64,000 nt of DNA from contig JABDPB010000117.1 of assembly GCA_013042995.1 (NCBI GenBank), positions 25,365 to 89,364 on the forward strand, written 5' to 3'. The stretch's first letter is position 1, and each line of letters begins with the position of its first letter. The notes under the pieces were generated by a model that saw nothing but the letters and a program-made list of their open reading frames with translations, searched no databases and had not been told where the DNA came from. Positions 46,307-51,709 of this stretch are shown one piece after another. Made by a program: the position numbers and the translations under genes. Origin of the DNA: Ignavibacteriaceae bacterium (GTDB lineage Bacteria; Bacteroidota; Ignavibacteria; Ignavibacteriales; Ignavibacteriaceae).

Positions 46307-47299
46307 TTAAGAAACATCTTCCTTCTTTAAAACCCCTTCATTAATTAACTCTCTAATAATTAACTCGGTCATTTCACTTTTAAAGGCAAACTCGTGTCGT
46401 ATATCAAGCACGTAAGCTTTTAATCGCATCTTTAGAAACGATCGTCGTTCTTTTACTTCATTAAAAAATAAAACGCTGATGGGCTTATTTAAATAAACGT
46501 ATTTCGAAACCCGAGCAACCTCTAGGGCAATATCTCTTACTTTAATTGTATCTACATCAATTGGAAGAAAAACTTCTGAAACTACCTGACAGTTTGGTTC
46601 GCCGGAATTTGAATTGGATACTGATTGATTCATTATTTCTGAGTTGGGAATGCTAACTATAGAATCATCCGCAGTAACAATACGGGTTGAACGCAATCCT
46701 ATAGTTAAAACCTCCCCGTAATTTTCACCAATCTCTATCTTATCCCCCACTTGGAATGGGCGGTCGAAGAGAATCATTATCCCTCCAAATACATTTTTAA
46801 TTAAATCCTGAGCAGCTAAACCTATTGCAATTCCAAGTGATGCTGAAACAGCAATTATAGTTTCAAAAGGTGGTTTTATAATAATTGCGATCACAGTATA
46901 TGCAATAAGAGCCCATCCTAAAAGTCTGACTATTGGAATTGTTCCCTTTAAAGAAATCCTATATCGTGTGCTTCTTTCTGCAATGTATTGAAGGATTTTT
47001 GTGATGATTTTAAGCAGGTAAAAGCCAACTAAAATAATAATTAGCGAGCCAAGAATTTTTTCAAACTTAAAAAGATCTTTAAGGTTATCAATTCCAACTT
47101 TTTCGGTAATGCTTGTTTGAGTTGTATCTTTAACAGTTTCTTTTTTAGTTGAAGTATCTTTTACTGATTCAGTTTGTTCAACAACAACTTGACTACTATC
47201 CAGCTGAACGGAAAGAGTATCGGTTTGGCTTACGTTTGTTAATACCAATAAGAAAAGTATTGTAAAAAATATTTTGGTTAAACTTTGCATAAAAAACAC
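46307..47299 (-). CDS. MscS-family mechanosensitive ion channel
   Basis: SLGIAIGLAAQDLIKNVFGGIMILFDRPFQVGDKIEIGENYGEVLTIGLRSTRI. Confidence 0.92.
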   Translation of the reverse strand: MFFMQSLTKIFFTILFLLVLTNVSQTDTLSVQLDSSQVVVEQTESVKDTSTKKETVKDTTQTSITEKVGIDNLKDLFKFEKILGSLIIILVGFYLLKIITKILQYIAERSTRYRISLKGTIPIVRLLGWALIAYTVIAIIIKPPFETIIAVSASLGIAIGLAAQDLIKNVFGGIMILFDRPFQVGDKIEIGENYGEVLTIGLRSTRIVTADDSIVSIPNSEIMNQSVSNSNSGEPNCQVVSEVFLPIDVDTIKVRDIALEVARVSKYVYLNKPISVLFFNEVKERRSFLKMRLKAYVLDIRHEFAFKSEMTELIIRELINEGVLKKEDVS

Positions 47300-50200
47300 T
47301 AAAGTAAATTCTTAGATTTTAATAACGTCACACTCTGCCGGTACAGCAAAGGGTTAATAAAAAACACATCGTTAATTTTTACCAGGACACCATCATTAAA
47401 TAAAATTTGTGTTAGTTGATTTGATTCGTGTAAAGAATAATTCAAAGTTTTTGACAGATCATTCATCCGAAGCCCATCGTGCAAAACAAGTGCCTGCAAA
47501 ATAAATATTTTTTCCATCGAAAGAGATTTGAGAATTGAATCAGAAATTTCAAAATCGGCATTAATAAATACTTTCCTTTCATCAATTCTGGTTATTGATG
47601 TAATCCAGAATAAAAGCGCAAGGCTTATGTTGCTCTGTGCAAATTTATGAAGGGAATTAAAAAACTCTTTTTCCAACAAGCTTTGCTGCTGCTCATAAGA
47701 GAGTTTTTCAAAATCTTTTCTCTTTTGCTCATCGGTGCTCAGTTCATATTCCAAACTATAGCCGCTTATAGAGTTCCGTCTTTTAACAAATTCTATTATC
47801 TGGCTTCTATTTAAATCTTTTAACAATATGTGATAACCAAAAATATCATTTAACCTGAGTACCTTATTTAAAAATTCATTAGCATAAAGTGTGGAAGAAG
47901 TTAACCAAAAGATATTTCTACTTGTTTTTGATATTACTTCACCGAGAATCTTTATGCACACAAATCCTTTTACAATTCTTAAATAAAGATGCTGGAAATT
48001 TTCAACGACAATTACCTGCCTGTTTTCTTTTTTGTTAAGAAATTCTACTAACTCATCAAAATTTAAAAACATTTCTGTTTCTAAAACTTCGCTGAAAGTT
48101 TTCAACAGCAATTGCTTATCATAAATAGTCGGTTTAATGCTTAACCTGCGCACAGTGTTTTTACTTTCATTTTTTTTCTGAAAAATATTAATAAATGAAG
48201 TTATACCTCCACCCTTTTCAGCAGAAACAATCACCGAAGCATAATTGCCATCCATCCAGTTATTGTATGCCATTTCAAGTTGCGATTCTTCAATTTCGCG
48301 TGAAATATAAAGTCGGTCATTTTCAAGAGGTAAATTTTGAAAAAGTCTGCGATAAATGTACGGTAGTTTTTGAACGGAGCTGTTTACGTTTGCCAAAAAA
48401 TCAGACACTTTACTTGTTATTGTCTCTTTATTTTCAGTTAAACCGAACTGTTTTCTTTTATCACTATAAAATCTTGATCCTTTTTTATAATAAGATTTTG
48501 TTCTCTCATATAAAACCGGTACAAAAGTTTTTATTGATGTAAAGAATTTGTCCCTTGCGGTTTTTGCTTTAACACTGGCTTTGGCTTTTGCAAGTTGAAT
48601 TTTTATTTCGAGAATTTTTGAGCTCTGTGAAAAACTGTACATCTCTTCACTGTAAACCGCAATCGAGTTTCGTAGATCATTAATTACTGCTTCACAGGCT
48701 TTTTCGTAAGCATCTTTTATATTTTCTTTTCGCTCAGTACTAATTTTTATTGCATCAACTGCGATTTCCTTGATCTCTGATTCTTTTAAATTTTCAGTTA
48801 GCGCAGCTGCAATTGCAGATTCAAGTCCAAAATCTGCCATGTTTCCCAGATTAATTAGTTCAGATTGAATTCTCCGTAATTCGGATACATTTTTTTCTTT
48901 TATTTTTTCTAAAGAAGATAAAAAGTTTGGTAGCGCATAAAATGAAACAAATTCTCGTGGATCAATTTCATCTACTTCAGATGTTTTAATTCTTTCCTTG
49001 TAGCTGGTAGTTTTAACAAATGCACATACTTCTTTTATCTTATCAACTTGGCTTTTTATTTCTAACGATACGTCATCAATCAACGAAGGAAATTTTATAT
49101 CCGAAATGGAATTAATAAGGGTTGGTAAAGTGGATGAAAGAAGAATCTTTTGCAGTGTCTCTTTTGAAAAAGAGATTAAACGTTCCAAATTTTGTAAATC
49201 TGTAACACGTTCATTCAGCTTTTCTGTAATAAACTTCAGAGCACCAAAAATTTCATTAAACTGTGGGAAAATTTGAACTTTGTTTTTAACTGAAAGAGAT
49301 TTTTCAAATTTGAAGAATGTTTCGATTGCGGAATAGCGTGCTATATTCAAATCAAAATTTAGTTCCCAATCTTCGCCAAGCGCATAAAAAGTATTGTCCC
49401 ACTCGAAAAGAATTTTATTAAAATCATTTTTAATTGAAGCAAAATTATTATTGAGCTTTTTATCTTTAAATTTCGATTTACGCAATTCAATTGTGCCTAC
49501 TCGATCGCAGGCAGAATTGAAATCCTCTACACATTGGTTAATAGAAGATTCTATTTTCTCTTTTAATTCTTTTTTTAGATTCCCTAGCCTGGAAGCTATC
49601 TTTTCTGGGTTTTCAAACGATGTGTGAACTGATTCGAAAGTACCGCTTCTTATAAAATTGGAAATGAAATCCAAATCATACTGCTCATCGTAATTCCAAA
49701 AATCAATAGAATTCTTGCTGAGTTCTCTGCTTACCTCTTCATAAACAGTAACAAGATTTTTCAAGAGTTTATTACGCAGGAAATATGATCCTGTGTTCCT
49801 CAGTGGTATTTTTTGATCCCAACGCTTTAATTCGAATGGTTTAATTTTAATTTTGAACAAAATGAAGTTTAAAGCTTTAAGCGTCAGCTGATGCAAATTG
49901 AAGAAAATATTTTTTATTCTTTTTACAGTACTAACAAGTTTTTTATCATTAGCCAGAGGTTTAAATCTCTCTTCCGCCTGTTCGACTTTCAGCTCAGGTT
50001 CAAGCTGCAAAGTAATTTCATCTAATTGCTCAACTATATCCGGGAATTTATTATCGAAATTTAAATCATCATTTTTTTTATAATGTTCATCAATCAAATT
50101 ATTGATACTGCTGCAAATGCTTTTCGATTCTTCTAGATTTACGATCATAATGCTTTCATCGTAATCCGGAAAGGCCTCGCGAAGATCTGCAATTGAGTTA

Positions 50201-50304
50201 AAAAAATTCAAGTACCTGTCTACCTCTGCATATAAAAGCTCTCCGTACTTGGCGTTTACAGCAGAACGAATTTCACTAACTATATCTTCTGATAAATATT
50301 TCAT
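47299..50304 (-). CDS. Uncharacterised 1001-aa coiled-coil-rich protein with C-terminal degenerate P-loop ATPase-like and winged-helix-like domains
   Basis: VSAEKGGGITSFINIF (degenerate Walker A), RQVIVVENFQHLYLR (Walker B-like), NIFWLTSSTLY (sensor 1-like), C-term LVLHDGLRMNDLSKTLNYSLHESNQLTQILFNDGVLVKI (wHTH-like); long helical N-terminus. Confidence 0.7.
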   Translation of the reverse strand: MKYLSEDIVSEIRSAVNAKYGELLYAEVDRYLNFFNSIADLREAFPDYDESIMIVNLEESKSICSSINNLIDEHYKKNDDLNFDNKFPDIVEQLDEITLQLEPELKVEQAEERFKPLANDKKLVSTVKRIKNIFFNLHQLTLKALNFILFKIKIKPFELKRWDQKIPLRNTGSYFLRNKLLKNLVTVYEEVSRELSKNSIDFWNYDEQYDLDFISNFIRSGTFESVHTSFENPEKIASRLGNLKKELKEKIESSINQCVEDFNSACDRVGTIELRKSKFKDKKLNNNFASIKNDFNKILFEWDNTFYALGEDWELNFDLNIARYSAIETFFKFEKSLSVKNKVQIFPQFNEIFGALKFITEKLNERVTDLQNLERLISFSKETLQKILLSSTLPTLINSISDIKFPSLIDDVSLEIKSQVDKIKEVCAFVKTTSYKERIKTSEVDEIDPREFVSFYALPNFLSSLEKIKEKNVSELRRIQSELINLGNMADFGLESAIAAALTENLKESEIKEIAVDAIKISTERKENIKDAYEKACEAVINDLRNSIAVYSEEMYSFSQSSKILEIKIQLAKAKASVKAKTARDKFFTSIKTFVPVLYERTKSYYKKGSRFYSDKRKQFGLTENKETITSKVSDFLANVNSSVQKLPYIYRRLFQNLPLENDRLYISREIEESQLEMAYNNWMDGNYASVIVSAEKGGGITSFINIFQKKNESKNTVRRLSIKPTIYDKQLLLKTFSEVLETEMFLNFDELVEFLNKKENRQVIVVENFQHLYLRIVKGFVCIKILGEVISKTSRNIFWLTSSTLYANEFLNKVLRLNDIFGYHILLKDLNRSQIIEFVKRRNSISGYSLEYELSTDEQKRKDFEKLSYEQQQSLLEKEFFNSLHKFAQSNISLALLFWITSITRIDERKVFINADFEISDSILKSLSMEKIFILQALVLHDGLRMNDLSKTLNYSLHESNQLTQILFNDGVLVKINDVFFINPLLYRQSVTLLKSKNLL

Positions 50305-50340: not shown

Positions 50341-50372
50341 AAAAAAACCTGCCCCGAAAAAGAGCAGGCTTA
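50341..50372 (-). terminator. Rho-independent terminator after the Yip1-like gene
   Basis: Minus strand AAGCCTGCTC-ttttt-CGGGGCAGGTTTTTTT. Confidence 0.75.
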
Positions 50373-50390: not shown

Positions 50391-50984
50391 TCAATAATTA
50401 GGCATTGCAGAAAATAAACTAAGTCCAAATACTGCAAGGAATATAGCGGTAAGTATTGCAGCAATGACAAAGTAAACAACAAGTAGAATAATTATCGATA
50501 CAATAAGATATCCAACTTTTTTGTCCTCAGGAGTTTTCATCATAGGAGCAAGACCTTTGTACATTAGGAATAAACCATACAACCCTATTAATCCGCCTAA
50601 CCAACCTATTGTGGGAAAGATGTTTAAAATTCCTGCTATCCAGACAGGAGTCATAGAATAAGCAACAAGCTGAACAGCTCTTCCCATATTTTTCTGCGAG
50701 CCAAAACTACCTGCAAGAGCATCAATTACAAATGCTGCAATTAACACTGAAAGAAAAGCATTAATGAGCTGTACAAGCCCCATTGCAATTCCATAAGTAA
50801 AAGATGTAAATCCAAAAGTGCCGACTACTCCCCAGCCAATGATAATTGCAATGGCAGGAATTAAAGCAAGCGGTAAAACGTAACCGAGTAGTATTTGCTG
50901 AATGTTCGGTTCTTCGTTTGCAACTACAGCCCACTCATCATCTGGTTTAATGATAATGTTTTTCGCTCTATCAACAAGATTCAT
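50391..50984 (-). CDS. Yip1-domain membrane protein
   Basis: MNLVDRAKNIIIKPDDEWAVVANEEPNIQQILLGYVLPLALIPAIAIIIG, five TM segments. Confidence 0.8.
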   Translation of the reverse strand: MNLVDRAKNIIIKPDDEWAVVANEEPNIQQILLGYVLPLALIPAIAIIIGWGVVGTFGFTSFTYGIAMGLVQLINAFLSVLIAAFVIDALAGSFGSQKNMGRAVQLVAYSMTPVWIAGILNIFPTIGWLGGLIGLYGLFLMYKGLAPMMKTPEDKKVGYLIVSIIILLVVYFVIAAILTAIFLAVFGLSLFSAMPNY

Positions 50985-51028
50985 GAGTACTCCTCTTTAT
51001 ATTTATGATTTGGAGTTATTTAAAAAAT

Positions 51029-51709
51029 TTACTCTGCTACCAGGCCGGCATCTTTAATATCTTCAAGATCACCAACAGGAACTTCATCTAAACCTTCTTT
51101 TATCAAATCCATTGGAACGTCCCATCCTTTTACTGAAACCATATATCTTTTAGCAACAAACAATTCAATTTTACCATCCTGAGATTCATTATCGTATTCT
51201 TCAAAACCTTTATGCCCCTTATATTCCATTGTTCGTTCGTAACCAGTATCGGTCTCTTTATCCACCTCTGCCATAGTCCATCCCCATGCAGCCAATCCAG
51301 CCCAGCCCTTCATGCTGCCCATATCTTTAATTTCAATTTCAACTCTTTGCCCCGTGTCTTCTAAAGTATACTTGCCTCGCGTTTCAGAAATTGTAAAACC
51401 CATACCACTATTTTTTTCACCAGTAGCACTTGTTCTGGGTAAAGGACCAACCTGCTCGGGTAACATATCTTTGAGCAGTCTAAAATCTACAACTTCATAT
51501 TCTTTTCCTTCTTCCATTTCTTTGTTGAGGTCTTCCATTTTCTCAACAAAATCATCAATACCTTTTATGCCCGTTTTCTTAGTTTCTTTTTCTTCGGTTT
51601 TGGGTTTGTCACTTGATTCGTCTTTTGGATCATCTCCAGCGGGTTTGTCGCAGCTCCACACTAAAATTAACGCTGCAAAAAACAAGTACATAATTACTGA
51701 TTTCCTCAT
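51029..51709 (-). CDS. Putative lipoprotein of unknown function
   Basis: Lipobox LVWSCD followed by charged linker; YEVVDFRLLKDMLPEQVGPLPRTSATGEKN. Confidence 0.65.
   Translation of the reverse strand: MRKSVIMYLFFAALILVWSCDKPAGDDPKDESSDKPKTEEKETKKTGIKGIDDFVEKMEDLNKEMEEGKEYEVVDFRLLKDMLPEQVGPLPRTSATGEKNSGMGFTISETRGKYTLEDTGQRVEIEIKDMGSMKGWAGLAAWGWTMAEVDKETDTGYERTMEYKGHKGFEEYDNESQDGKIELFVAKRYMVSVKGWDVPMDLIKEGLDEVPVGDLEDIKDAGLVAE

Follow-up and report, generated by a model that had tools for sequence, protein, structure and literature searches.

What does a protein with a degenerate P-loop do beside an MscS channel? In textbooks, MscS channels are safety valves that work alone. The stretch analysed here (the window) comprises 64,000 nucleotides (nt) of contig JABDPB010000117.1 from an Ignavibacteriaceae bacterium, and on its reverse strand a gene for a 1001-amino-acid (aa) protein is followed by a 330-aa open reading frame (ORF) of the MscS family (Table 1). 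An earlier note, made from the sequence, proposed that the large protein, read as a degenerate AAA+/STAND-like P-loop protein, and the channel could be an osmotic-stress or defence-type effector pair. Both ORFs hold, and the smaller one exceeds the curated cut-off of PF00924 (E 2.6e-21), which identifies it as MscS. The pair spans Bacteroidota and is present in Alphaproteobacteria (Novosphingobium, Caulobacter), and relatives of the large protein are fused to ion transporters. We judge it rather probable that the pair is a membrane-docked regulatory subunit plus its MscS channel, through which MscS-type tension sensing or gating is linked to the control of ions and turgor. The pair is undescribed in the open-access papers searched.

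Conservation of the pairing

The large gene travels with MscS. Queried at full length, the protein has relatives in 15 of 80 genomes of its family, and a 437-position profile of its C-terminal part finds the domain in 31 of the 164 order-level genomes, in 36 of 391 sampled from the class and in 78 of 396 sampled from the phylum. At full length one relative shows 61% identity, and dozens more are full length. Because such relatives exist and their neighbour is nearly always MscS, the window gene is not a chance ORF.

Searches from either partner gave the same picture. We mapped the genes around 75 genes carrying the ATPase-like domain, from relatives with flanking DNA, and 73 had an adjacent MscS gene on the same strand (70 by gene maps, three by six-frame search), lying 3' in 60 loci and 5' in 13. 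This search used the ATPase-like domain alone, so the count is not circular. Five loci had at first seemed unpaired: an ORF filter had missed MscS in three, and the other two (L148 and L150) are distant relatives without adjacent MscS, L148 being followed downstream by genes for a small membrane protein and a Na_H_Exchanger. The window protein found no matches as a query in the genome contig scan; a profile of the MscS partner then succeeded, and in all of the best 80 of 249 GTDB loci an ATPase-like gene stood directly 5' of MscS. This second set overlaps the first in part, and its genera include Aquimarina, Polaribacter, Fulvivirga, Reichenbachiella, Ancylomarina and Marinoscillum, alongside records titled Ignavibacteriaceae and Ignavibacteriales. 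The earlier note had allowed that the P-loop fold might prove absent and the pair might be confined to this genome; instead the fold is predicted, as described below, and the link with MscS is specific and widespread.

Outside Bacteroidota, the window protein's C-terminal part matches a gene on Novosphingobium pentaromativorans plasmid pLA3, which as a query finds Novosphingobium sp. PP1Y and Caulobacter sp. NIBR2454. The genes on pLA3 and Caulobacter pNIBR24541 are annotated 'AAA family ATPase' or 'ATP-binding protein', with MscS directly after. The PP1Y relative (L244, plasmid Mpl) has 1110 aa, is 80% identical to that of pLA3 and is absent from the plasmid's table, which lists one feature. 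A record titled 'Rickettsiales bacterium isolate NP5' (L157) carries an ATPase-like gene that clusters tightly with Marinoscillum on the tree, and is probably a misnamed or misbinned metagenome-assembled genome. In one genome the ATPase-like domain occurs a second time, broken by several stops; this copy appears to be a pseudogene in decay (G173:C2:85715-86919).

Tight spacing is a trait of the family. In 58 of the 60 pairs with MscS 3', the genes are separated by -16 to +44 nt. The earlier note had derived translational coupling from a GTG start of MscS overlapping the TAG stop of the large gene. The close spacing stands, but that GTG is probably a mechanical ORF start, because MscS in a close relative (L018) begins at a methionine aligned with the window's ATG at 47290, 8 nt past the large-gene stop.

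Fusion of the module to ion transporters

Relatives of the window protein form four architecture classes. Class A comprises stand-alone proteins of ~1000 aa with MscS, as in the window, and minimal flavobacterial forms of ~430 aa. Class B loci encode an antiporter-like protein, a 1500-aa fusion of a PF00999 antiporter to the module, an MscS-like protein and, in most loci, TrkH and TrkA. Class C pairs a 1700-aa SLC12/AA_permease-module fusion with an MscS-like protein of ~243 aa, and class D contains distant relatives (749-808 aa) that are accompanied by a small membrane protein and, encoded separately, a Na_H_Exchanger. Several classes can occur in one genome: A with C in G035 and G110, A with B in G125, and B with C in G217. 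The N-terminal part of the class C proteins matches AA_permease/SLC12 and the K-Cl cotransporter model TIGR00930 (395 bits, below its cut-off). They thus resemble prokaryotic SLC12 cation-chloride cotransporters there, but add ~950 residues, the module, after the usual cytosolic domain, together with an MscS-like partner.

These architectures point to ion homeostasis. Class A aside, every fused or operon-linked transporter belongs to a family that moves monovalent ions. Adjacency holds in both gene orders and in two phyla, and the fusions involve two transporter families that are unrelated, which speaks for a functional unit in ion and turgor homeostasis. The osmotic-stress half of the effector-pair idea is strengthened by the antiporter and SLC12 fusions and by TrkH and TrkA. 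The arrangement recalls TrkA/KtrA (RCK) and KefF-type subunits, cytoplasmic nucleotide-type regulators encoded with transport proteins, and TrkA itself sits in some of the operons. Unlike these, the module has an AAA+/STAND rather than an RCK Rossmann fold, and it partners MscS, Na+/H+-exchanger-type antiporters and SLC12.

A gene for a GAF-SpoIIE (PP2C-type) phosphatase lies just 5' of an antiporter-module-MscS-TrkH-TrkA operon (L026 1333-2970), and similar-sized ORFs occupy this position in L027, which has the same gene order, and in L028 (557 aa); the phosphatase may feed a signal into the operon. Elsewhere (L091 3779-6869) a stand-alone pair is followed in one run by a gene for a CorA-type Mg2+ transporter and two more MscS genes.

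A predicted P-loop domain with a degenerate Walker A motif

The C-terminal part of the window protein is predicted to fold as an AAA+/STAND P-loop domain. The 1001-aa protein matches no Pfam or NCBIfam family above its curated cut-off and has no credible PDB relative by sequence search. A full-length AlphaFold model (predicted local distance difference test, pLDDT, 85) places the Walker A stretch in a true P-loop (strand 691-695, loop, helix 701-712), VIVVEN in a Walker B strand (763-768), IFWLTSS in a sensor-1 strand (798-805) and a winged helix at ~923-983. The motifs that the earlier note had picked out by eye, from the degenerate Walker A to the terminal winged helix, are thereby borne out. 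Foldseek matches the C-terminal part to ORC2 (1w5t, E 6.3e-7), PABY2304 (2qen, E 5.4e-6) and Cdc6 (1fnn, E 6.4e-6), and also to NLR resistosomes, so the predicted alpha/beta P-loop core followed by a winged helix is that of AAA+/STAND P-loop NTPases.

The domain departs from these relatives in its Walker A motif and its company. In its predicted P-loop core, its lid helices and its winged helix at the C-terminus it resembles AAA+ ORC/Cdc6 proteins and STAND/MNS NTPases (Aeropyrum ORC2, PABY2304, NLR resistosomes), but SAEKGGGITS lacks the lysine of GxxxxGK[ST], as do most members of the window's clade. Set beside the Walker B acidic pair (hhhhDE/DD), VIVVEN has one acidic residue and asparagine at the second position, and mixtures of E, D, N and H occur across the family. 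The family adds a novel duplicated helical N-terminus and a near-obligate MscS partner, and has none of the known sensor repeats or effectors of STAND/MNS proteins.

These structural matches suggest two other readings. The first is an ORC/Cdc6-like DNA-binding regulator of osmotic genes whose adjacency to MscS is incidental; the winged helix and the best Foldseek matches, ORC/Cdc6, fit it. Winged helices of STAND proteins usually have a structural role, however, and the protein has basic amphipathic helices of a membrane type. Above all, relatives carry this module as part of integral membrane transporters, which makes DNA-binding regulation very improbable.

The second is a STAND-type anti-phage or stress-suicide system with MscS as the killing effector. 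Resemblance to STAND/NLR proteins speaks for it, and channels do act as effectors in some defence systems. Against this, neither window protein has any PADLOC match, 50,697 phage records gave no match, and the single weak match of the window query among 72,556 plasmids is itself an ATPase-MscS pair. No known defence genes were identified at loci with annotated neighbours, and the protein shows neither the defence-model match nor the defence or mobile context of Avs-like anti-phage STAND proteins. The host genome has one copy of the gene, the family's steady partners are ion transporters, and many members have lost the P-loop lysine on which STAND switches depend. We give the defence half of the earlier proposal very little credence.

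Walker A lysine and pore motif across the family

The P-loop lysine and the channel pore vary with architecture. The lysine is kept in all 23 fusions (13 of 13 antiporter, 10 of 10 SLC12) and in most flavobacterial stand-alone forms, and is arginine in most members of the clade with MscS 5'. In the large stand-alone clade of the window protein, it is gone from ~74 of 81 members and kept in ~7, with Ile, Val, Ala, Thr, Leu, Ser or others in its place; the P-loop glycines and Thr/Ser are mostly retained. Because the loss recurs across the clade, it is conserved rather than a sequencing error. One subclade (L156, L161, L165, L185, L195, L204) shows another unusual departure in the P-loop, tryptophan for the first inner glycine (GEKWSG/GEKWGG).

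On the channel side, the window MscS has a canonical pore. Its third transmembrane helix (TM3), ASLGIAIGLAAQD, aligns with that of E. coli MscS, and the window channel has both the PF00924 beta-domain and the glycine/alanine pore motif. Classical MscS acts alone, and the open-access papers searched describe no dedicated P-loop partner. In the reverse of the lysine pattern, the pore motif is kept in 46 of 47 stand-alone partners but in 0 of 26 transporter-linked ones. These latter MscS-like proteins are probably tension- or membrane-sensing subunits. A tree of 143 domains separates the SLC12 fusions, the antiporter fusions, the MscS-5' clade and the stand-alone clades, with about two changes of architecture and eight of lysine state.

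The helical N-terminal region

The first 640 residues are predicted to form a duplicated helical body. Modelled alone, they reach pLDDT 93 and a predicted template modelling score (pTM) of 0.83, and profile self-alignment with hhalign reveals a tandem duplication (E 6.7e-7, probability 92%). The region is helical, as the earlier note had it, but is a well-defined duplicated fold rather than a plain coiled coil. Repeat 1 carries a strongly basic insert of 40 residues, whose net charge averages +7.9 over 87 sequences. A second basic helix is found N-terminal to the P-loop domain (means of +4.7 over 561-594 and +4.4 over 595-622 in the same number of sequences). Both are candidate membrane or channel contacts. 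A Foldseek search with the N-terminal model returned no PDB structural match at E<=0.001, and on that ground a dynamin-like or BAR identity was rejected. A CHIPS (PF11434) match of 14.6 bits, against a cut-off of 25, was dismissed as a chance hit in the basic helix.

The same body would suit an assembly or localisation factor, a chaperone or scaffold for MscS and the fused transporters in place of a gating regulator. Its elongated helices and basic amphipathic elements are also compatible with that role, the AAA+-like fold of the window's clade lacks conserved catalytic residues, and gene order and tight spacing would allow co-translational assembly. That the module is covalently joined to complete antiporters and to SLC12 transporters, with the Walker A lysine retained in every case, instead favours permanent nucleotide-dependent regulation. 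We regard the scaffold role as unlikely, though a more serious contender than defence or DNA binding.

Proposed function

We propose that the pair is one device, an MscS-family channel with a dedicated cytoplasmic regulatory subunit, and infer that the two form a physical complex. The duplicated helical stalk would dock to the inner membrane, the channel or both through its two basic amphipathic elements, and the AAA+/STAND-type domain with its winged helix would be the switch. Since the lysine is lost in the window's clade, the switch there most likely works without ATP hydrolysis, and the subunit could be a scaffold, could sense nucleotides or ionic strength, or could modulate the gate of an MscS pore that is itself intact. 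Sister lineages have the module, P-loop lysine retained, as the cytoplasmic tail of an antiporter or a K-Cl-type cotransporter. It may thus tie mechanosensing to the flux of K+ and other ions for turgor control. The SUR subunit of the K-ATP channel offers a working analogy only, a P-loop protein as permanent channel regulator; SUR is an ABC membrane protein, and we claim no homology.

More tentatively, and with doubt and confidence nearly balanced, the family could be an undescribed class of ion-homeostasis machine. Its module would regulate MscS when stand-alone and antiporters or K-Cl-type cotransporters when fused, with the MscS-like partner repurposed as a pore-less sensor in the fusions and the switch as a pseudo-ATPase in the stand-alone form.

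Several observations weigh against the regulatory-subunit reading. Architecture changes only about twice on the tree, so the correlation between P-loop and pore rests on few independent events, and the exchange of one for the other is not strict, since stand-alone forms in flavobacteria combine the lysine with a canonical pore. The gene is patchy (15 of 80 family genomes) and therefore not essential. Ten other MscS genes accompany the single partner copy in the host genome. No physical interaction or phenotype for the pair was found in the open-access papers searched.

Locus layout and neighbouring genes

The pair appears to stand by itself in the window. A terminator-like hairpin (50371-50345) lies between it and an upstream Yip1 gene, which suggests that the pair forms its own transcription unit. 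Further upstream, at 50391-51709, are the genes for this Yip1-domain membrane protein and a 226-aa lipoprotein-like protein, kept only in close relatives (L018, and L023 by size). Because their counterparts are limited to the same genus and the hairpin separates them from the pair, we rejected both as parts of the system. A peptidase M49 gene that recurs downstream in flavobacterial loci was judged incidental. By gene count, the host genome has one large gene, 11 MscS matches including that of the window, and one TrkH.

Table 1. Features of the pair, in window coordinates
Feature	Position	Strand	Evidence
1001-aa AAA+/STAND-like protein, novel helical N-terminus, MscS partner	47299..50304	-	ORF, ATG start; AlphaFold pLDDT 85
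Helical repeat 1, residues 1-268	49501..50304	-	AlphaFold (residues 1-640); hhalign to repeat 2
Basic amphipathic insert ('paddle'), residues 116-158, helix 122-151	49831..49959	-	Gap in repeat 1/2 alignment; repeat 1 only
Helical repeat 2, residues 276-557	48634..49479	-	AlphaFold and hhalign
Second conserved basic helix, residues 561-619	48448..48624	-	Net charge; N-terminus of natural 430-aa minimal forms (L122, L125, L126)
Predicted AAA+/STAND-like P-loop domain, residues 647-850	47755..48366	-	AlphaFold and Foldseek
Degenerate Walker A SAEKGGGITS, residues 694-703, Lys to Ile	48196..48225	-	Sequence/alignment
Walker B-like strand VIVVEN, residues 764-769	47998..48015	-	Alignment and AlphaFold model
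Sensor-1-like strand IFWLTSS, residues 798-804	47893..47913	-	Alignment and AlphaFold model
Predicted C-terminal winged-helix domain, residues 923-1001	47302..47538	-	Model secondary structure and ORC/Cdc6 matches
MscS-family channel partner, 330-aa ORF	46307..47299	-	PF00924 E 2.6e-21; likely start ATG 47290
MscS pore helix TM3, canonical G-x-x-x-G-x-A-x-Q-type motif	46778..46843	-	Alignment with E. coli MscS
Terminator-like hairpin 5' of pair	50345..50371	-	11-bp stem and T-run; consensus match only

Implications

A partner found throughout a phylum, and also as the tail of antiporters and SLC12 cotransporters, would give a direct molecular handle on how bacteria coordinate MscS with K+ uptake and efflux. 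Culturable hosts (Aquimarina, Polaribacter, Fulvivirga, Novosphingobium and Caulobacter) make the system testable. If the proposed role is true, STAND/AAA+ domains, whose best-known roles lie in immunity and replication, would also serve ion homeostasis.

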